Translations under genes and position numbers: made by a program | Source of the DNA: Methanosarcina sp. 2.H.T.1A.6 | GTDB lineage: Archaea; Halobacteriota; Methanosarcinia; Methanosarcinales; Methanosarcinaceae | Length of the DNA: 64,000 nt | Assembly (NCBI RefSeq): GCF_000979455.1 | Contig: NZ_JJOY01000041.1 | Span: 1 to 64,000 of the forward strand | Direction: 5' to 3' | Notes under the pieces: model-generated | What the model was told of the DNA's origin: nothing | The model's input: the letters and a program-made list of their open reading frames with translations, nothing else | The model's database searches: none | Shown here: positions 28,153 through 46,330 of the stretch, piece by piece | Layout of the letters: the number at the start of each line of letters is the position of its first letter | Position numbering within the stretch: position 1 is the first letter of the stretch

Positions 28153-29435
<1,283 letters not shown>

Positions 29436-33880: not shown

Positions 33881-36619
33881 ATGGAGATTTCCCGCCTGCT
33901 GAATGAAATAAAAGCTTCCAGCCGATATGAAAACCAGATAGTTCATATTGAAGAAAAACCTGCAAGGGACGCCCTTTATTCACCTCTTGAGCTGAAGGAG
34001 CAGGTAAAAACTGCCCTTTCAGGCATTGGAATCGAATCTTTATACTCCCATCAGGCTGAAGCGATCGAAAAGATCCGGGAAGGAAAAGACATAGTGCTCT
34101 GCACAAGCACGGCAAGCGGAAAGTCCCTTACTTACATGATCCCTATTTTTGAAACTGTCATGAAAGACCCTGAGGCTACTGCCCTTTATATATCTCCCCT
34201 CAATGCCCTTGTAAACGACCAGTTAAAAGCCTTCCTTGAATTTGAAGGGGCACTGAATTCCGGAGCAGGCATAGCCCGTTATACTGGCGCCCTGACTGCA
34301 GCCCAGAAGAGAGAAATCAGGGAAGGGCAGACTAATATTGTTTTCACAAACCCTGAAATGGTACACATGAGCTTCCTTGCCTGGCACCATCTCTGGAGAC
34401 GCTTTTTTTCAAACCTCAAATTCATTGTTGTTGACGAGAGCCATTACTACAGGGGAGTTATAGGAAGTAATATGGCAAACGTGCTCCGAAGGCTTCTCCG
34501 GACTGCCGAACACTATGGAGCTTCCCCGCAGTTTATCTGCTGTTCGGCAACTATAGGCAACCCGAAAGAGCATACCGAAACCCTGCTGGGAAGGGAAGCA
34601 GAAGTAGTTGAGAATAACGGCTCTTCACACGGCCCCCAGAAATTTGTGTTCTGGAACCCCCCTCTTTACCTGAATGGAAGGGGGAGTACAGTCAGAAAAA
34701 GCAGTTTTTCCGAAACCTCAACCCTTTTTACGCGGGCAGTCCAGGCGGGGCTCCAGACCCTTGCATTTACGCGGTCAAGGCAGGGAGTGGAGCGCATGTA
34801 TAAGAGCTGCAGGGAACTTTTGAGGGAACGCGGCCTCGCTTCCGCTGTCTGTTCTTACAGGAGCGGCTATTTTGACAGGGAGAGGGAAGAGATCGAAAAG
34901 AAAATGAATTCGGGAGAACTCAGGGGCGTCATTTCCACAAATGCCCTTGAACTCGGGATAGATATAGGAGGGCTTGATGCCTGCATTCTTGACGGCTATC
35001 CAGGCACGGTTATGAGCGCAAGGCAGCAGGCAGGCAGGGCAGGCAGGAGCGGAAACGAAAGCCTTGTCCTTATGGTAGCCGGCACAAATGCCCTTGACCA
35101 GTATTATATGAGAAACCCGGACGACTTTTTTGCAAGAAGCAGCGAAAATGCAGTACTTAACCCTAAAAACCCCTATATCCTTGCAGGGCACCTGCTCTGC
35201 GCAGCAAAAGAAATTCCTCTCAGGGTATCCGATGAAAAGTACTTTGGGAAAGGGTATCCAAGAGTTGTTGAGCTTCTGGAAGCCGAAGGGCTGCTTGCAG
35301 GCAGTGACCTGAAGTATTCCACTGACCCTTTCCCTTACAAACAAGTCTCCCTGAGAGGGATAGATAATAATACTTACTCTCTTCTTGCTTTTGAAGGGGA
35401 AAAGAGCTTTCCTATTGAAAAGGACATAGAGGAGACCCTGGCTTTCCGGGAGTGCCATCCGGGTGCGGTCTACATACACAGGGGAGAACCTTTCTACATA
35501 AACAGGGTCGACCACGAGAAAAAGGAAATCCATGCCGTAAAGACGCACGACAACTACTACACAAAACCCATGATAGATTCCTCGGTCTTGGTGCGGGAGA
35601 CATATGCGGTAAAACCTCTCCGGCACGCTCCCGAGGTGGAGGTGGGGCTTGGAGACGTGGAGGTAACGGACACGATCATAGGGTACAGGAAAATCCGGAC
35701 CCACAGCGACGAGACCATGAGTGCCCATGACCTTGAGATGCCTCCGATAACCCTTCAGACAGTTGCTCTCTGGCTTAAACTCCCAAACAGGCTGCAGGAG
35801 CTGATCGAAGAGCACAAGCTCGATTTTGCAGGCGGGATCCATGCTGTTGAGCATGCGATGATTTCCATGTACCCTCTGCACCTGCTTGTGGACAGGAGCG
35901 ATGTGGGAGGGGTTTCAACTCCTTCCCATCCCGACCTCGGAGGCAAAAGCGGGATCTTCATCTACGACGGGCACAGGGGAGGAGTCGGGTACGCTGAAAA
36001 AGGCTATGACCTGATTGAAGAGGTCCTCGACGGCACCTTAAAAGCCATTGAAAGCTGCCCCTGCGAAAGCGGCTGCCCTGGCTGTATCCAGTCCCCCAAG
36101 TGCGGAAACAACAACGAACCCCTTGACAAGCACGCTGCAGTCATGCTTCTGCACGAACTCCTGGGAAAAGCCCCCTACATCCCCCCTGAGAAAAAAGAAA
36201 GGCACCTCTCTGAAGCCATAGCCCTGAGGCAGATCCCGGAAAAAAAGGACTCAGGGGATGCCCTTGACAGGGTCAGGAGGCAGCTCAGGCGGGAGACCAT
36301 AAAACAGGATCCGCAGGAAGGACAGGAGAAAAAGGAAAAGACCTTCATTGCCACGGACGAAAATGGGGGAATGCTTGGAGTCATCTCGGCTCCTTCCCCG
36401 GAAAAGGCTGCAGCAAAAACCTTTCACCACAAACTCGCAGGGCAAAAGGAAGCTACGAGAGAAAAGCCCATTGATATCCGGGTCAGGGACCTTGGGGCAG
36501 GCAGCGACTACCACTTCAAGGTCTGGACCGAGCTTTTCAAAAGCACAGAAAATGGCGCATCTGATACGGAAGAACAGAAAAAGGCTGTGAGGAAACTGGT
36601 TATTAGAAGAATGAACTGA
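33881..36619 (+). CDS. DExH helicase with DUF1998 domain and C-terminal MC1-like domain
   Basis: This 912-residue superfamily-2 helicase of the MrfA/YprA group (DUF1998) couples ATP hydrolysis to DNA unwinding. Motif I is CTSTASGKS (about residues 74-82), motif II VVDESHYY (about 184-191), motif III CCSATIG (about 221-227) and motif VI QQAGRAGRSG (about 383-392). The DUF1998 region ends in the four-cysteine cluster CESGCPGCIQSPKCG (about 728-742). The tail is unusual: about residues 820-885 resemble archaeal chromosomal protein MC1 (FIATDENGGMLGV aligned with the MC1 strand FVLRDEDGNEHGV, then IDIRVRDLGAGSDYHFKVW). If correct, the helicase carries its own DNA-bending domain. The gene is monocistronic. 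Confidence 0.93.
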   Translation: MEISRLLNEIKASSRYENQIVHIEEKPARDALYSPLELKEQVKTALSGIGIESLYSHQAEAIEKIREGKDIVLCTSTASGKSLTYMIPIFETVMKDPEATALYISPLNALVNDQLKAFLEFEGALNSGAGIARYTGALTAAQKREIREGQTNIVFTNPEMVHMSFLAWHHLWRRFFSNLKFIVVDESHYYRGVIGSNMANVLRRLLRTAEHYGASPQFICCSATIGNPKEHTETLLGREAEVVENNGSSHGPQKFVFWNPPLYLNGRGSTVRKSSFSETSTLFTRAVQAGLQTLAFTRSRQGVERMYKSCRELLRERGLASAVCSYRSGYFDREREEIEKKMNSGELRGVISTNALELGIDIGGLDACILDGYPGTVMSARQQAGRAGRSGNESLVLMVAGTNALDQYYMRNPDDFFARSSENAVLNPKNPYILAGHLLCAAKEIPLRVSDEKYFGKGYPRVVELLEAEGLLAGSDLKYSTDPFPYKQVSLRGIDNNTYSLLAFEGEKSFPIEKDIEETLAFRECHPGAVYIHRGEPFYINRVDHEKKEIHAVKTHDNYYTKPMIDSSVLVRETYAVKPLRHAPEVEVGLGDVEVTDTIIGYRKIRTHSDETMSAHDLEMPPITLQTVALWLKLPNRLQELIEEHKLDFAGGIHAVEHAMISMYPLHLLVDRSDVGGVSTPSHPDLGGKSGIFIYDGHRGGVGYAEKGYDLIEEVLDGTLKAIESCPCESGCPGCIQSPKCGNNNEPLDKHAAVMLLHELLGKAPYIPPEKKERHLSEAIALRQIPEKKDSGDALDRVRRQLRRETIKQDPQEGQEKKEKTFIATDENGGMLGVISAPSPEKAAAKTFHHKLAGQKEATREKPIDIRVRDLGAGSDYHFKVWTELFKSTENGASDTEEQKKAVRKLVIRRMN

Positions 36620-37491: not shown

Positions 37492-38928
37492 ATGGGTGAC
37501 GAAAACCAGGCTGTAGAAAAAGAAAAGATAGACTCTGCATATGATGTCATAATCATAGGGGCAGGGCCAGCGGGGATGTTTGCAGCTTACGAGCTTGCAG
37601 CCGGGAAGCTGAAAATTCTTGTTATTGATATGGGCAGGGACATTGATAAACGCCTGTGCCCCATGAAAACCCAGAGCTACTGCATGCACTGCACTCCATG
37701 TGAGATCATGTGCGGGGTTGGGGGCTGCGGGACGTTTTCTGACGGGACCCTGAACCTGCGGCCTGACATAGGAGGAGACCTTGCAGCCCTGACCGGAGAC
37801 CAGACAGAGGCCTGGAAACTGGTGGAAAGGGTTGATAAAGTTTTCCTTAAATTCGGAGCGCCTCAGGGTGCCCTCCTTACCGAAGGCCCGGAAATAGAGG
37901 AGTTAAAACGCAGGGCTGCCTCGGTCGGAGCCCGGTTTATAGAGATAAAGCAGCGGCATATAGGTTCGGACAATGCTCCTGTAGTCATAGGATGCTTCAA
38001 ACAGGACCTTGTTGATAAAGGTGTGGATTTCCTGATTGAGACCGAAGTCCAGGACCTGCTTGTTGAAGGCGGAACGTGCAAAGGAGTTATACTCTCAGGC
38101 GGAAGAGTTGTCCGTGCGCGTTACGTGCTCCTGTCGCCTGGAAGAAGGGGCTGCAACTGGGTCTCGGAAATGATTGAAAAACATGATCTTGAAGCCCGTT
38201 ACGGAGGGATTGACATAGGAGTCAGGGTGGAAGTCCCTGCAATTATTATGGACCCTGTAACGAAAATCAACCGGGATCCCAAGTTCCATATACAGAGCCG
38301 CCGCTATGATGACTTTGTCAGGACTTTCTGCACCAACATGCGCGGTTTTGTCGTAAAGGAAGAATATGAAGACTTTATTGCAACCAACGGCCATTCGATG
38401 GCAAACACGGAATCCGAAAACACCAATTTCGCTTTCCTCGTCCATATCGAACTGACCGAGCCCATGGAAAACACAACCAAATACGCCCGTTCAATCGCAA
38501 AACTCGCAACAACGATCGGCGGAGGAAAACCTGTCCTCCAGCGCATGGGCGACCTCAGGCGCGGACGCCGTTCTACAAAAGAGCGCCTTGCCAAAAACCT
38601 GGTTATAAACACATTAAAAGATGTCACACCCGGCGATATCTCAATGGCTCTCCCGCACAGGATAGTCATGGACATAATCGAAGGCCTTGAGACTTTAAAC
38701 GAGATCATTCCCGGCGTTGCCTCGGACTCAACCCTGCTTTACGCCCCTGAAGTCAAGTTCTACGCCATGCATCTGAAAGTCGACCGCCAGATGGAAACCA
38801 GTATCATAAACCTCTTTGCAGCAGGAGACGGAGCAGGGCTCTCAAGGGACATAGTCAATGCCGCTGCAACCGGAATCATGGCTGCAGAAGGGATTATAAA
38901 AAAGGTAAAGGAAGATCAAAAAAGGTAA
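37492..38928 (+). CDS. FAD-dependent dehydrogenase (COG2509 family)
   Basis: This 478-residue NAD(P)/FAD-dependent oxidoreductase has the N-terminal dinucleotide motif VIIGAGPAGMFAAYELA (about residues 20-36), followed by a cysteine-rich segment with MHCTPCEIMCGVGGCG (about 64-79), and a C-terminal FAD-binding end NLFAAGDGAGLSRDIV (about 442-457). The family is uncharacterised, though it is broadly conserved in anaerobes. The cysteine cluster could hold a disulfide or an iron-sulfur site. A short 20-bp duplication (AAAAGGTAACAGAA repeated) surrounds the stop codon at 38926-38953. Confidence 0.9.
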   Translation: MGDENQAVEKEKIDSAYDVIIIGAGPAGMFAAYELAAGKLKILVIDMGRDIDKRLCPMKTQSYCMHCTPCEIMCGVGGCGTFSDGTLNLRPDIGGDLAALTGDQTEAWKLVERVDKVFLKFGAPQGALLTEGPEIEELKRRAASVGARFIEIKQRHIGSDNAPVVIGCFKQDLVDKGVDFLIETEVQDLLVEGGTCKGVILSGGRVVRARYVLLSPGRRGCNWVSEMIEKHDLEARYGGIDIGVRVEVPAIIMDPVTKINRDPKFHIQSRRYDDFVRTFCTNMRGFVVKEEYEDFIATNGHSMANTESENTNFAFLVHIELTEPMENTTKYARSIAKLATTIGGGKPVLQRMGDLRRGRRSTKERLAKNLVINTLKDVTPGDISMALPHRIVMDIIEGLETLNEIIPGVASDSTLLYAPEVKFYAMHLKVDRQMETSIINLFAAGDGAGLSRDIVNAAATGIMAAEGIIKKVKEDQKR

Positions 38929-40071: not shown

Positions 40072-40290
40072 ATGGAAGAAGCCGATAAAAAAAAGATGAG
40101 TGAACGGGATATCTGCTCGAAATTTATCACACCTGCGATCAAACAGGCTAACTGGGTAGACCGCCAAATCCGGGAAGAGGTGAAACTTACAAACGGCAGG
40201 ATCATTGCAAGTCTATTCCAAAACCAAACCATGCACATAAAAGAATTCGCTCCCGAAAAAGCCTGTTGTGCCAACCAAACAGAAACCTAA
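40072..40290 (+). pseudogene. fragment of type I restriction enzyme subunit R (N-terminus)
   Basis: The frame MSERDICSKFITPAIKQANW followed by QIREEVKLTNGRII matches the N-terminus of HsdR (usual consensus SERDICTKFITPAL, then QIREEV.FTDGRI). Similarity stops after about 45 residues. A whole HsdR has about 800-1000 residues, so only the extreme start remains. It is followed at once by an HsdM fragment. Confidence 0.75.
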
Positions 40291-40511: not shown

Positions 40512-41177
40512 ATGGGATATTTTTGTTCGGTTTGCAAATCAGATATAACGGATGCAGAATTCAATTATTCAATGGACAGATACGAGCAAGCTCTATGCAG
40601 GCAGCATCAGAAAGAAGTTACCAATCATCAACCTTCGGAAACTTCCAAAGCTCCGCCATACTCATCAAATCCTGATCAATCAGTCAATTTTTCCAAAAGG
40701 GATAGCAATTTTGTGGAAAATATGATCAAAGGAAGAATTGCTGAAACTCTTATCGAAGAATTATTCCTCTCCCTCAATTATTCAGTCTTCAGATACGGCA
40801 TGGAAAACACCGTTCCCGGAATCATGAAACTTCTCAGGGGCGTCCGAAGTGACGTTGCCACAAACATCCGCAGGATGCCCGACTTTGTAATCCAGAACAA
40901 CAAAAATGGGGAAGTCTTCTTCATAGAAGTCAAATTCCGAAAAGATGAAGTATTCACCTCTGAAGACCTGGACAAAGACTACCCCTATGAAAACTGCTAC
41001 TTCGTCGTCGTCTCAAAGAAACACATCAAATGCATAACCTACGAAGAACTTAGAACCGGAGAGGCAGTAACCCCAACTTCCAAAAACTACCTTGGCAACA
41101 GAAAAGAATTCGAACTTGACAAGGACGTAATCATCCAGTTCTGCGACTTTGCAGTCAAATTCTTCTCAGTCGTCTAA
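40512..41177 (+). CDS. zinc-finger / PD-(D/E)XK nuclease-like protein
   Basis: This 221-residue protein starts with a putative zinc site (CSVC at 5-8, then C and H in LCRQHQ about 28-33), a Ser/Pro-rich linker (about 38-60) and a PD-(D/E)XK-like core: GRIAETLIEELFLSLNYSVF (helix with Glu, about 76-95), RRMPDFVIQ (Asp about 123), FFIEVKFRK (Glu/Lys about 138-140). A GTGAGG ribosome site and a TATA-like TATAATTAAAC lie upstream of the ATG. It looks intact while the type I genes on either side are broken. It could be a solitary restriction or repair nuclease or part of a decayed type I locus. No exact family is recognised. Confidence 0.75.
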   Translation: MGYFCSVCKSDITDAEFNYSMDRYEQALCRQHQKEVTNHQPSETSKAPPYSSNPDQSVNFSKRDSNFVENMIKGRIAETLIEELFLSLNYSVFRYGMENTVPGIMKLLRGVRSDVATNIRRMPDFVIQNNKNGEVFFIEVKFRKDEVFTSEDLDKDYPYENCYFVVVSKKHIKCITYEELRTGEAVTPTSKNYLGNRKEFELDKDVIIQFCDFAVKFFSVV

Positions 41178-41263: not shown

Positions 41264-41455
41264 GTGGGAACTATTTTTACAGTAGGGGTTCTCCATCTCC
41301 TCAATGAACAAAAGCACATCGTTGAGAAAGTCGAGCAGCTCATGGGTTTGTGTGATGAACTCGAATTAAAACTGAGAAAGACGCGGGGAGATAGCGGGAA
41401 ACTTATGGGAACGGTTGTTCGGGGTTTGTTAGAGGGAGCTGTTGTAGAAATATAA
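41264..41455 (+). pseudogene. fragment of type I specificity subunit HsdS (C-terminus)
   Basis: The frame has NEQKHIVEKVEQLMGLCDEL then ELKLRKTRGDSGKLMGTVVR and LLEGAVVEI, which matches the C-terminal conserved helix of HsdS (normal P-L-P-E-Q-x-R-I-V then LMALCDELE). Only about 60 residues remain. Confidence 0.75.
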
Positions 41456-41846
41456 AAAAGAAGTTATGAAAAATCTCCCCCGAAAAACCATATTCACTAT
41501 CTCGACCCTGTCTTTTCACCGAGCGCAGCTCGGGCAATCCGAAAAAGCACAAAAGAAGACAGATTTTTAGCACATAGAATTCTACGGATATCTAATTCAC
41601 TGGTAATTCCATATTTACATTTTTTACTTATCATAGTATTCTGAAATTGATTAATGCCTTATTCACGAGCAACAATAGAGAGCAGATTTAATTTATAGCT
41701 CTTCTAAATCAATTCTTTTGGACATATACTAATATTTAGTTATATAGATTATTTATTAATAAATATTTTTTAACAACAGGCTTATCTTATCCCAGTATGG
41801 AATTAGATATAATCCAGAAAAGGGTTAGTGTAATAGTAAACAGGTC
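41456..41846. repeat. upstream region of zinc-ribbon gene 1, duplicated at 42720-43088
   Basis: Landmarks shared with 42720-43088, in order: CGAAAAACCATATTCA/GGAAAACCATATTCA, GCAGCTCGGGC/GCCAGCTCGGGC, CACATAGAAT, and ATTTAGYTATATAGATT. A third, shorter trace occurs near 44360. The region must hold the promoter of gene 1. Confidence 0.7.
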
Positions 41847-42605
41847 ATGAGCACATTGGGAAATAATATCAAGCGTCTGGGATTCCCACAAGGGAAACAC
41901 AAAAGATGTTTAGAGAACTCTTGCTATGAACTGAACACCTACACTGAGACGTTAACAATTACCTCAAAAGGAGAAATTAGGTCATTTTATTGGAAAGACA
42001 AAGCGCCTCAATTGATTGAAAAGTGGGGGGAAGAAAAAGCAAGACGTTTTGGAATACTTTTCGCGTATTTATTCGTGACTACATTTTTCATACTGATTCT
42101 GGTTTATGCCCTCCTGGACCTCTTCGAATTTTTAGAGAATGCATTCTGGTGTTTTGTTCTGGCAGCAGTTGGGGCGATTATTTACTTTGGCAGCCTTTCA
42201 CGTCAATATACAGATGCAGCAGCTTATCACAAAAGTTCAAGATGCAAAAAATGTAATCGAGATTTTGCACTTGAAGAATTTAAAGATCCTCTTATTACGG
42301 AAGTAAGCACTCTCGACAAATATAAGATAGCGAGGACAAAGTACTGGAAATGTAAGTTCTGTGGAACTGAAGATTACAGGACAGAAGAACTCGATTATAA
42401 TAACCACAAAGGTAAAAAAAGTAAACAGAAGGAAGATACCTGTAGAATATGCGAGAAAGAGTTTGCAATGTCGGAATATAGGGACCCAGATGTGAAAAAA
42501 GTAGACAATGTAGAAACAACAGTCAGGCACTATAAATGTTCAAATTGTGGCTTTCAGGAAATTACAATAGAGAAGGGGATTATAGAGGAAATAAATATCC
42601 AATGA
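41847..42605 (+). CDS. membrane protein with two C-terminal zinc ribbons (paralogue 1)
   Basis: This 252-residue protein of unknown function has a soluble start (about residues 1-65, containing GFPQGKHKRCLENSCYEL), two membrane helices (about 68-90 and 97-115), then two tandem zinc ribbons. Ribbon 1 is CKKCNRDFALEEF (about 132-144) with CKFC (about 169-172); ribbon 2 is CRICEKEFAMSEYRDPDV (about 198-215) with CSNC (about 231-234). The shared pattern C-x2-C-x3-F-A-x2-E-x2-D/P ... K-C-x2-C-G suggests the ribbons arose by internal duplication. It is paralogous to the next gene (same order, same spacing). The lead segment up to the helices is also conserved. A regulatory or membrane-sensing role is a guess. 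Confidence 0.75.
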   Translation: MSTLGNNIKRLGFPQGKHKRCLENSCYELNTYTETLTITSKGEIRSFYWKDKAPQLIEKWGEEKARRFGILFAYLFVTTFFILILVYALLDLFEFLENAFWCFVLAAVGAIIYFGSLSRQYTDAAAYHKSSRCKKCNRDFALEEFKDPLITEVSTLDKYKIARTKYWKCKFCGTEDYRTEELDYNNHKGKKSKQKEDTCRICEKEFAMSEYRDPDVKKVDNVETTVRHYKCSNCGFQEITIEKGIIEEINIQ

Positions 42606-43088
42606 AGTAAAGAATTTAATAATAACTCCGCAGTTGTTTCTTCCTAAAGTTAAAAAAGCAGGGTAGATGTGAAACACTAATGGGGATAGTTTTCAAGGGT
42701 TAGTTTATGAGGACACTGCAGAAATATAAAATATAGTTCTGGAAATCTTTCCGGAAAACCATATTCATATGTCTTTCACAGGGTGCCAGCTCGGGCCAGT
42801 CTGAAAAAAACATAAAAGAAGAAGGATTTTCAGCACATAGAATCCCGTACTTACTTTTTTATTTGTTGTGGCATTCTAGATTTATTTTATGTAATTATTC
42901 GCTACAACCAGAAAAAATATATTTGCCACTAGTTTTAACATTAATTTCTTTGAATACACACCAGTATTTAGCTATATAGATTTGGAGGTAATAATTATTA
43001 CTTAACAAAAGGATTATCTTATTCTGAGATATACATAAATATAATCAGGGAAAAAAGGCTAGATAATTGGAAACTGGTCACTGATATT
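42606..43088. other. intergenic: second copy of the zinc-ribbon upstream region
   Basis: From 42720 the sequence follows the same order of short conserved blocks as 41456-41846, which indicates that the gene and its upstream region were duplicated together. No gene lies here. Confidence 0.65.
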
Positions 43089-43808
43089 TTGAGCATCCAT
43101 AAATATGTAGAATTTCCAGTAGGCGTAAACAAAAAATGCATAGATGATGTTTGTTACGAACTGGACAGAGAAACAGATAGATTGACAATAAGCTTGGAAG
43201 GCGATTTTAATAGTTTTCCTGATAAACTAGCTCCTTATCTTGTCAACCGATTTGGTTTAGGGATGACAAAACTCATAAAAATATTGACTATGTATTCATC
43301 CATTTTACTGTTCTTCCTGTTAATTTTAGAAATGATTTTAGAAAAAAATAGCTCGCTTTCACCGACCATGCTTTTCTTTGCAAGCTTGACATTTTTTGTC
43401 ATTTCTTCATATATGTCTGAAATCGAGAATTACTATAACATTTCCAAATGTAAGAAATGTGGTAGAGATTTTGCTTACGAGGAAATTAAAAAACCTCTTA
43501 TCAAAATGGTAAGTACTTACGACAAATTTGAAAAAACAATAACAAGGTACATGAAATGCAGGTACTGCAATAATAAAGATATCAAGACAGAAATCGACTA
43601 CAAAAATTCTAAATCCAAATCAAAAAAGGTTAATAAAAATAGAAAAACCTGTAAAGGATGCGGAAGAAAGCTTGCTTTAGCAGAATACAGGTACCCTGAT
43701 GTGCATCAGGAGTATTATAACGCTTTTAGAACAATCAAACACTATAAATGTACAAGTTGTGGGTATATGGAAATCAGCATAAAGTACGATTACATCGCTA
43801 CAAGCTGA
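43089..43808 (+). CDS. membrane protein with two C-terminal zinc ribbons (paralogue 2)
   Basis: This 239-residue paralogue of the 41847 gene has the same organisation: lead region FPVGVNKKCIDDVCYELD (about residues 9-26), two hydrophobic segments (about 62-85 and 92-112), ribbon 1 CKKCGRDFAYEEI (about 120-132) with CRYC (about 157-160), and ribbon 2 CKGCGRKLALAEYRYPDV (about 187-204) with CTSC (about 220-223). The start is a TTG at 43089, aligned with the ATG of paralogue 1. No conventional ribosome site is seen. A HepT fragment follows on the other strand 12 bp downstream. Confidence 0.72.
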   Translation: MSIHKYVEFPVGVNKKCIDDVCYELDRETDRLTISLEGDFNSFPDKLAPYLVNRFGLGMTKLIKILTMYSSILLFFLLILEMILEKNSSLSPTMLFFASLTFFVISSYMSEIENYYNISKCKKCGRDFAYEEIKKPLIKMVSTYDKFEKTITRYMKCRYCNNKDIKTEIDYKNSKSKSKKVNKNRKTCKGCGRKLALAEYRYPDVHQEYYNAFRTIKHYKCTSCGYMEISIKYDYIATS

Positions 43809-43820
43809 ATAAAAATTGGA

Positions 43821-44039
43821 TTAACAATTTTCGATTTCACCGAGAAGTTTCTCTATTAATGGTTTTACGGAAGGGATGTCATCTTTTATTGTGCTCCAGA
43901 CGACTTCAAGGTCAACCCCGAAATAACCGTGAATCATTTTATCACGGGCTCCAGTCATTTTTCTCCACGGAACTTCAGAATGCTCCTTCTTCAAGGATTC
44001 TAGCAAATTTTTTGTTGCTTCGCCTATTATTTCAATAGC
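43821..44039 (-). pseudogene. HepT-type HEPN toxin, 5' truncated
   Basis: The frame contains AIEIIGEATKNLLESLKKEH, VPWRKMTGARDKMIHGYFGV and VVWSTIKDDIPSVKPLIE, the C-terminal half of HepT (HEPN, DUF86). The catalytic R-x4-H motif is present as RDKMIH. The N-terminal helices are missing. The remaining frame runs directly into the mntA fragment without a proper start. Confidence 0.8.
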
Positions 44040-44236
44040 CCAGGCTTCTTCTCGAATTGAACCAGAATGTCAAGGTCACTATCCTCAGTTTGTTCTCCAC
44101 GGATATAAGACCCAAAAATCCCAAGATAGCTTACACTATATTTCTCTCTTAATTCGGGTAGATGTTGCCTTAATATTTTGATAAAATACTCTGCGTCTTT
44201 TAGCTCTGAGAAGGCATTGTTTCCGAAGGTCTCCAC
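44027..44236 (-). pseudogene. MntA-type nucleotidyltransferase antitoxin, 3' truncated
   Basis: This frame starts METFGNNAFSELKDAEYFIK and has the polymerase-beta-type core GIFGSYIRGEQTEDSDLDIL, matching MntA antitoxins that AMPylate HepT. After LVQFEKKPG it runs into the HepT sequence in another frame and stops. Normal MntA has about 95-100 residues; here 69 remain. A deletion joined it to hepT. Confidence 0.8.
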
Positions 44237-44421
44237 TTATTTCCACAGAAATTTTATTTTAACACTTAATTTCTCACTAACGAGAATATATGTACGTATC
44301 TATTTGTCATTTTCTCCAATTTGCATTATTAAAAAAGCATCTACGGAAATATTGACCGGATGCGAGCCTGGGCCTTTCCGAAAAAAAAATCCAAAAAGCA
44401 TGATCAATAAACCGAACCCCT

Positions 44422-44880
44422 TCAGGGAACATATGCGGATATTGCGCTCTTTGTTTCCATATATTTATGCCCACAATACCTGCACCTGTAATAGCTGGTA
44501 ATTTTTATTGTTTGTGACCAGTCATCATATACCACTGGTTTTCGGGTTTGCACATAAGCAAATTCTCTCCCGCATTTTTTACATATCCTTGAGAGGTAGT
44601 AATCTCTTGCTTGATAGAAAATAGCTGCAAGTAAAAGGAAAGGGATACCCAGAAAGAAGGTTATTCTTGATTGTAGCTCGCTGCCGATAATAAATAATGC
44701 AATGCCCACTCCAGCAGATACTATGCAGAAAAAAAGAAGATTTGGTTCCCCATATCTAAAAATCAGATATGAAGAGGTTTTTGCTTCAAAGGATGGGCTT
44801 TCAATATATGGCTTGTGACAGTCCGATAATGCCTCTTTAGCGTTATCAACCTTCGAAGAAGCAGATTTTTCTCCAAACAT
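44422..44880 (-). CDS. membrane protein with one zinc ribbon (paralogue 3)
   Basis: This 152-residue protein has a Ser-rich start, two membrane helices (about residues 48-66 and 74-92), then one zinc ribbon, CKKCGREFAYVQTRKP (about 105-120) with CRYC (about 133-136). The ribbon resembles ribbon 1 of the two plus-strand paralogues (CKKCGRDFAY). It forms a minus-strand pair with a similar gene at 44922. Unknown function; about half the size of paralogues 1 and 2. AAATGGAGAG lies before the ATG and may serve as ribosome site. Confidence 0.72.
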   Translation of the reverse strand: MFGEKSASSKVDNAKEALSDCHKPYIESPSFEAKTSSYLIFRYGEPNLLFFCIVSAGVGIALFIIGSELQSRITFFLGIPFLLLAAIFYQARDYYLSRICKKCGREFAYVQTRKPVVYDDWSQTIKITSYYRCRYCGHKYMETKSAISAYVP

Positions 44881-44921
44881 ATGCTCTCCATTTCACTAAT
44901 TTCAACCGCAAATATATCTCA

Positions 44922-45380
44922 TCACTGAAGTCCTGGAGTTACATCCTTTTTTTCCACACACTCCTGTCCACAGTACTTGCATTTGAAATAATCATAACTA
45001 TCTACACTATGTACCTCAGTCGCAATTTCTGTATCCCGAGTCTTCACATAAGCAAATTCTTTTCCGCATCTTTTACATTTTCTGGAGAGATAATATTCCC
45101 TCAAAATAAAAAACCAGCAACCAAGAATCAGAAAGAGAGAACCCAGAAGGAATACTTGAGAGCCCTCTTTAATCAAACCGTAAATGAGTATAATAGCACC
45201 TGCTATCAAGAAAACCATACTTATAATGTAAACACGGTATTCTCCGAACTTCAAAATGAAAGATTCTGAGATAGCCCCTGTAACAGACATATTCTCAACA
45301 TAAGGATTATTGCAGGCATTTTCTCGAGTTTTTTCAGATCCACTGTTCCCCTTTGAAGGTGCAAATTTGTCCCCCAACAA
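44922..45380 (-). CDS. membrane protein with one zinc ribbon (paralogue 4)
   Basis: This 152-residue paralogue of the preceding gene has a similar first part (M-x-G-x-K then S-K), two membrane helices (about residues 48-68 and 74-92), and the ribbon CKRCGKEFAYVKTRDTE (about 104-120) with CKYC (about 135-138). AAGGAGGC lies before the ATG as a strong ribosome site. The two single-ribbon genes are 41 bp apart on the same strand and probably cotranscribed (44922 first). Function unknown. Confidence 0.75.
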   Translation of the reverse strand: MLGDKFAPSKGNSGSEKTRENACNNPYVENMSVTGAISESFILKFGEYRVYIISMVFLIAGAIILIYGLIKEGSQVFLLGSLFLILGCWFFILREYYLSRKCKRCGKEFAYVKTRDTEIATEVHSVDSYDYFKCKYCGQECVEKKDVTPGLQ

Positions 45381-45724
45381 ATAGCCTCCTTACTCGCATA
45401 TTACACCTGAGCTTATTTTTCTATACATCATCAAGGAACATAAATATTCCCACCAAGCGCAATTTAGGGTTCTTTCAAAAAACAGAAGCAAGAAGCAAGA
45501 AATTGAGCACGCTGAATTCAGCGAATTTAATTTATTATCTGAAAACCTGCACAAGATCACTTTGAAATTTTATTTACTTATTTGATACTAAGGAAAAGCC
45601 GCACTGCGCGCGTACAAGATTCGTTAAAAATGCTAGTGATGTTGCTTCAGTTCAGAAAAGATCACTTATCTAGAGAGAGTTACTACAGAAAAGTAAAAAA
45701 AGTTATGAATCTTCGCCAAAAGTT

Positions 45725-45830
45725 AGTCCTCTTGAACGCAGCGAAAAGGACCGCGTACTGTTGCGATTACATCGCAACTCCCAGAAAATCTTCGATTTAC
45801 TGTGATCCCAAAGCGCAATTCGGGTGGCGA
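45725..45830. repeat. dispersed intergenic repeat, copy A
   Basis: It starts TAGTCCTCTTGAACGCAGCG, continues with TGTTGCGATTACATCGCAAC and CAGAAAATCTTCGATTT and ends near AAGCGCAATTCGGG. TTGCGATTACATCGCAA inside it is a near-perfect hairpin. It matches copies at 46148 and 46273 and a partial copy at 36830. Confidence 0.8.
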
Positions 45831-46147
45831 AAAGCAGGAAGCGAAACAAAGATGGAAAAGAGAATTGAAAAAACATCTGTAATATGGGGATTGGGCATCT
45901 GGATATTGGGGAGTTGGGGGGTATGGGGGGTTATTAAAAAGAGTTAAAAACAAGTCTTTAATGACCTTTCCAGATGCCCAGTATTTTAGTAGATTTAATG
46001 ATATATATAGTTAAAGATTAGTCGTTTATTCGTGAAGTACCATCAAGGCAACTGTATGTGATTTGCAGGCAAACGAATTAAACTAAAAATAGAACCAGAG
46101 TTGTTCAAAGTCCTCTTGAACAAAGCTCACTGCGAGAAACTATAAAT

Positions 46148-46245
46148 TAGCCCCCTTGAGCAAAGCGAAAAGGGCGGCGTACTGTTGCGATTACATCACA
46201 ACTCCTAGAAAATCTCCGATTTCCTGAGGTCCCGAGGCGCAATTA
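46148..46245. repeat. dispersed intergenic repeat, copy B
   Basis: It starts AGCCCCCTTGAGCAAAGCG and follows copy A with substitutions, including TGTTGCGATTACATCACAAC and CTCCGATTTCCTGAGGTCCC. Confidence 0.8.
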
Positions 46246-46272
46246 GAGAAATACAGCCTGTAATTTTGTAGC

Positions 46273-46330
46273 TTAGTCCTCTTGAGCGCAGCGAAAAGGA
46301 CACCGTGCTCCCGAAGCGGAACTCGGGAAG
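46273..46330. repeat. dispersed intergenic repeat, copy C (partial)
   Basis: It starts TAGTCCTCTTGAGCGCAGCG and ends at CCCGAAGCGGAACTCGGG; the middle of the unit is missing. Confidence 0.75.

Follow-up and report, generated by a model that had tools for sequence, protein, structure and literature searches.

What are four intact genes for putative membrane-anchored zinc-ribbon proteins doing among the debris of restriction and toxin-antitoxin systems? The question is raised by a block at positions 41847-45380 of a 64,000-nucleotide stretch of the Methanosarcina sp. 2.H.T.1A.6 genome (contig NZ_JJOY01000041.1, positions 1 to 64,000, hereafter the window), which carries the open reading frames P1 to P4:

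41847-42605, plus strand: P1, 252 residues, N-terminal beta domain, two predicted membrane helices, two Cys4 ribbons
43089-43808, plus strand: P2, 239 residues, TTG start, predicted architecture as in P1
44422-44880, minus strand: P3, 152 residues, two predicted membrane helices, one Cys4 ribbon
44922-45380, minus strand: P4, 152 residues, TTG start, two predicted membrane helices, one Cys4 ribbon

With moderate confidence, we read P1-P4 as members of an undescribed family of membrane zinc-ribbon proteins from Methanosarcina and its relatives, a family that is old, lineage-specific and mostly inherited vertically at fixed chromosomal loci, and some members of which have been recruited as passengers of an array built on repeated hsdS 3' ends, present here in decayed form. 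The homology, predicted architecture, purifying selection, loci and repeat array on which this account draws were computed directly.

A first-pass annotation of this DNA had described a four-gene family with two ribbons on the plus-strand genes and one on the minus-strand genes, following two helices, and that description holds. All four frames are open, intact and mutually homologous, the hydrophobic helix pair lies N-terminal of the ribbons in every one (4/4) and follows a short N-terminal segment (a small beta domain in P1 and P2), and the cysteines are conserved, with minor departures from the annotated motif in P1 (CKKCNRDFAL) and P4 (CKRCGKEFAY). Among the 26 diverse members from which the family profile was built, the four cysteines of the first ribbon are invariant (26/26); a set of 49 members with two ribbons shows conservation of both. 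P1-P4 each carry the invariant CxxC...CxxC after the two-helix hairpin and match the profile at E <1e-20; the genus-wide profile gives 1e-79, 5e-79, 4e-33 and 2e-29 for P1 to P4, respectively, so their relatedness is not due to chance. The structure model of P2 is confident (mean predicted local distance difference test score, pLDDT, 89.5) and consists of four N-terminal strands (residues 3-37), helices at 43-84 and 91-119, and then two three-stranded ribbons, while the P4 model is of moderate quality (pLDDT 74.9). Positive charge is greater on the flanks of the hairpin than inside its short loop, a distribution that suits the predicted cytosolic location of both protein ends.

None of the libraries searched contains a description of this family, as the first-pass annotation had proposed. 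No family in Pfam, NCBIfam or PADLOC covers P1-P4, and every Pfam and NCBIfam match stays below its curated cut-off; the known zinc-ribbon families of both libraries likewise fail to reach the gathering cut-off. Generic Pfam zinc ribbons (DZR, the HypA metal-binding region, the Cas12f1-like TNB domain, and C1) share the CxxC...CxxC spacing of P1-P4, but their matches are weak, confined to the ribbons, and leave out the membrane hairpin and the N-terminal beta domain. The MqsA-type zinc-ribbon antitoxin, which has a C-terminal helix-turn-helix domain (TIGR03830), was considered and rejected, with scores of 15.2 and 14.0 bits against a cut-off of 61.8 and matches in the ribbon region only. A sequence search of the PDB gave a generic ribbon as its best match (E 0.025), Foldseek returned no match at E <0.001 against PDB and BFVD, and no relatives of the family were found in viral, plasmid, and phage collections.

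Profile searches match the family in 28 of 31 Methanosarcina genomes (a few matches being weak or fragmentary), and copy number per genome reaches eight, the number of real copies in this genome. Outside Methanosarcina, the family was found in a second genus of this taxonomic family (the sister genus, g7) and sporadically elsewhere, with the remaining phylum-wide matches mostly short, weak, and limited to the ribbon. Members fall into groups with characteristic neighbours: group A (17 members) lies beside hcp and phosphoenolpyruvate (PEP) carboxylase or beside a flavin adenine dinucleotide (FAD)-dependent oxidoreductase (at 37492 in the window), group B (9 members) beside YgjP, hydantoinases, and conserved neighbours, and group C (6 members, two genera) beside aroA/gatB. 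Neighbours are common to other members of the group in 14/17, 8/9, and 6/6 cases, respectively, and the identities of hcp, PEP carboxylase, YgjP, hydantoinase, EPSP synthase, and GatB were confirmed by Pfam. The gene order in g7 (two hydantoinases, YgjP, a single-ribbon member, a second member, hcp) suggests that groups A and B may have come apart from a single ancestral locus. The window retains the anchor of the oxidoreductase locus:

37492-38928, plus strand: FAD-dependent oxidoreductase (Pfam), single-copy genus-core anchor of the locus

This gene occurs in one copy in 26 of the 31 genomes, and is 84-95% identical to that of other species. In this genome, as in G004, G007, G009, G012, G018, G020, and G022, family members lie no more than ~20 kb from it and always on the same side.

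In the family tree, P1 groups with an orthologue from G027 (61% identity) and P2 with five orthologues (57-70% identity) of a patchy lineage present in 6/31 genomes at differing genomic places, while P3 and P4 are sisters (support 100/87) in a single-ribbon clade that includes proteins of G022 and the sister genus. P1 and P2 share 40% identity at a synonymous divergence (dS) of ~2.6, and P3 and P4 33% at ~2.0, values near saturation that give a minimum age only. The ratio of nonsynonymous to synonymous divergence (dN/dS) is 0.15-0.36 in every pair tested, and P1-P4 are under purifying selection. Both pairs, P1/P2 and P3/P4, are old duplicates rather than a recent expansion. Elsewhere in the family, some single-ribbon relatives have Asn/Gly-rich, possibly beta-solenoid N-termini (L070 8922-9488, L079 8522-9487, L110 8345-9004, L111 7927-8484); an amyloid-type signalling motif was considered for L070, L079, and L110 and dropped, as Pfam gave only a sub-threshold Hexapep match (L110) and a literature search nothing relevant.

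The second part of our account concerns the repeats that separate these genes. The hsdS-tail repeat, a direct repeat that comprises the last hsdS codons plus ~200 bp downstream, occurs three times in the window:

41336-41628, plus strand: hsdS-tail repeat 1 (E 5e-82)
42661-42860, plus strand: hsdS-tail repeat 2, degenerate (E 6e-26)
45446-45604, plus strand: hsdS-tail repeat 3, limited to the distal part and marking the end of the block (E 1e-9)

P1 stands between repeats 1 and 2, and P2, a MntA-HepT remnant, P3, and P4 stand between repeats 2 and 3. The same tails separate other cargo in other genomes, namely HepT-MntA (G008, G020, G023, G011), Fic (G020, G007, G011), ParE-type pairs (G022), and, in G020, an AAA ATPase; family members lie between tails in G003, G012, G020, G026, and sister-genus G373. 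The order in G020 is hsdS, tail, HepT-MntA, tail, family member, Fic, tail, that in G012 is tail, P2 orthologue, tail, and in G008 the tail units are in tandem (484 bp, 3.1 copies); arrays of this kind, present in many Methanosarcina genomes, also span L137 7517-12390, L067 2505-9912, L140 5858-8985, and L082 7372-10279. Four genomes (G010, G023, G006, G029) have a tail near the same FAD oxidoreductase with no family member nearby, and the cargo at this locus therefore varies. Type I restriction loci that carry Fic or toxin-antitoxin cargo likewise combine hsdR, VRR-NUC, and hsdS with such modules, but here repeated hsdS 3' ends separate the cargo, the membrane family included, and we found no description of this layout in the literature searched. 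Just outside the block, at 45720-46309, are short direct repeats, one of 101 nucleotides at 84% and one of 37 nucleotides in three copies.

Family, tails, and HepT are found together more often than expected, by Poisson P values that use per-genome densities, come from post hoc tests, and are too small owing to shared ancestry: genome-wide, a family member lies no more than 5 kb from 11/25 tail sites (0.13 expected, P 6e-18), HepT is equally close to 7/25 (0.38 expected, P 2e-7), HepT lies within 5 kb of 6/50 family loci (0.53 expected, P 2e-5; three of the six at one locus), and away from the FAD-oxidoreductase locus a member lies within 5 kb of 4/14 tail sites (0.06 expected, P 7e-7). Reversed control sequence (1.2 Mb) gave zero tail matches. 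The clustering with defence genes that the first-pass annotation proposed to look for is seen around HepT and the tails, but most members sit at conserved loci beside metabolic genes. A conserved non-defence context, which the first-pass annotation had named as evidence against its reading, therefore largely describes the family as a whole, while the array copies in this window differ.

The relics that had been annotated around P1-P4, a defence island and a broken MntA-HepT pair between the genes, were recovered as follows:

40072-40209, plus strand: hsdR remnant (residues 1-46 of 762; L044 has an intact HsdR, 83% identical)
40512-41177, plus strand: orphan VRR-NUC nuclease gene, intact (PF08774, 24.0 bits against a cut-off of 23.8)
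41273-41452, plus strand: hsdS coding remnant, last 61 codons, 75% to HsdS residues 510-570
43824-44039, minus strand: HepT remnant, residues 47-118 of 118
44030-44206, minus strand: MntA remnant, residues 5-63 of 102

The L044 HsdR carries the Pfam domains HSDR_N, ResIII, and EcoEI_R_C. Over its full 221 residues, the VRR-NUC protein is 85% identical to its G020 counterpart. In G020 and G022 the gene belongs to an intact type I locus and comes just ahead of hsdS; the order of that locus is also that of hsdR, VRR-NUC, and hsdS directly before P1. A complete type I restriction-modification system is absent from the window, which has only hsdR and hsdS fragments, with no N6_Mtase match listed on the contig. 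The pair between P2 and P3 gives NTP_transf_2 and HepT-like Pfam matches above cut-off, the same families as the MntA-HepT (type VII) toxin-antitoxin (PMC7641770), but both of its genes are truncated. Because P1-P4 are intact and constrained while their restriction and toxin-antitoxin neighbours have decayed, their function, whatever its nature, does not depend on that restriction system or on that toxin-antitoxin pair.

Upstream of P1 and P2, the similarity has two sources, the distal hsdS-tail repeat and a promoter-proximal element of ~130 bp:

41708-41821, plus strand: promoter-proximal element of P1, 114 nucleotides, 70% to 42940-43053
42940-43053, plus strand: promoter-proximal element of P2, 114-nucleotide direct repeat of the P1 element

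The shared upstream DNA reported by the first-pass annotation is real in both its parts, the distal part being an hsdS tail. Other copies of the promoter-proximal element stand in front of P2 orthologues, which lie in unrelated genomic positions, and of one G027 family member, and its conservation along with the genes suggests that they may be specifically regulated. A single genus-wide promoter element serving all groups was ruled out, as the element is restricted to the P1/P2 clade and one G027 group A copy. These observations bear on the idea, also advanced in the first-pass annotation, that selection from conflict or stress drove a recent amplification of the four genes at this site. The two tandem pairs and the upstream DNA common to P1 and P2 would agree with it, but we consider it very improbable given the dS of both pairs: in the tree both splits predate the orthologue groups of other species, P1 and P2 belong to sister lineages, both of which are represented by orthologues elsewhere in the genus, the single-ribbon lineage is already present in the sister genus, and part of the common upstream DNA is a tail repeat that is also found without these genes.

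Several points weigh against our account of an old family with members recruited into the array. The proximity counts are non-independent, with 7/11 positive tail sites at one ancestral locus; the third repeat is weak, at only 71% over 124 columns and its distal half only; PADLOC gives weak matches of P2 to RTasSLATT (7.8e-5) and of P1 to PycTM (0.0043); and any function of the ribbons is proposed by analogy with generic zinc ribbons. The array association could, moreover, mean a conflict role for P1 and P2, which is possible because the Pfam-recognised array cargo, bar the restriction genes and one AAA ATPase, is of toxin-antitoxin or Fic type. The dependence on one locus is what would be expected if old members at the FAD-oxidoreductase locus were neutral passengers of a later insertion hot spot for type I and toxin-antitoxin modules, with no functional link, and the many species whose group A copies occupy either that locus or hcp are consistent with this; yet four positive tail sites lie elsewhere, including the tail-flanked P2 orthologue of G012 and the member within tails in G026, a member flanked by tails occurs in G373 of the sister genus as well, and we regard purely neutral carriage as rather unlikely.

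Also unlikely, in our judgement, is that proteins of the P1/P2 type act as toxin-like conflict proteins or as membrane effectors with two helices, of the SLATT/PycTM kind, in which the ribbons would sense an infection signal and the hairpin would permeabilise or perturb the membrane, as functional cargo of a defence array. The HepT-MntA, Fic, and ParE-type modules in the same arrays, the enrichment of HepT near family loci, the PADLOC matches above, and the patchiness of P2 all point that way, and P1-P4 share two membrane helices with these effectors. Across the 49 members, however, the SLATT model matches only 2/49 and PycTM 1/49, SLATT is not listed among the Pfam matches of family members, and membership in SLATT/PycTM was rejected for want of a family-wide significant profile match. 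No dedicated partner gene was seen, neither a nucleotide-signalling nor a reverse-transcriptase partner being recognised beside P1-P4 in the window; metabolic genes adjoin most family members, and the genes have outlasted the decay of the restriction and toxin-antitoxin genes. The conflict or stress role that the first-pass annotation suggested is accordingly left with co-occurrence with toxin-antitoxin modules above chance in its favour, and with intact genes amid decayed defence and the lack of phage, plasmid, or viral relatives in the collections searched against it; a defence role of P1-P4 is unproven.

As for what the recruited proteins might do, we infer zinc binding, topology, and partner binding. 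The membrane hairpin would hold the ribbons, loaded with metal, against the cytosolic face; there they may engage a protein or nucleic acid partner or react to the metal or redox state, and extra family copies might diversify partner binding. Such a membrane-tethered cytosolic ribbon module, sensing metal or redox state or holding a partner, is a tentative proposal that we would not yet lean on.

A broader possibility, to which we give little weight at present, is a modular Methanosarcina defence array in which units (type I genes, HepT-MntA, Fic, ParE-type pairs, and the zinc-ribbon family) are inserted between hsdS 3'-end repeats, with hsdS as the landing site, the duplicated tail as the unit boundary, and the zinc-ribbon proteins as a recurring and undescribed conflict module. 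The zinc-ribbon genes themselves are less of a surprise than the layout of the array; were this array reading true, Methanosarcina would accumulate restriction and toxin-antitoxin modules at the hsdS end, with duplicated tails marking the units, and in this major group of methanogens the tails would serve as a simple sequence marker by which to find new defence modules. Meanwhile, the lineage-specific zinc-ribbon family offers a clean genetic target in a tractable archaeal genus.

Two further features of the window lie away from the block. An Rfam scan found no RNA within the block, its sole match being an eL15 ribosomal-protein leader (RF03144) at 29201-29252, upstream of the L15e gene. A large helicase at 33881-36619, with MZB (MrfA) and HRQ1-type winged-helix domains, gives non-specific matches to many defence helicase models and probably acts in repair.

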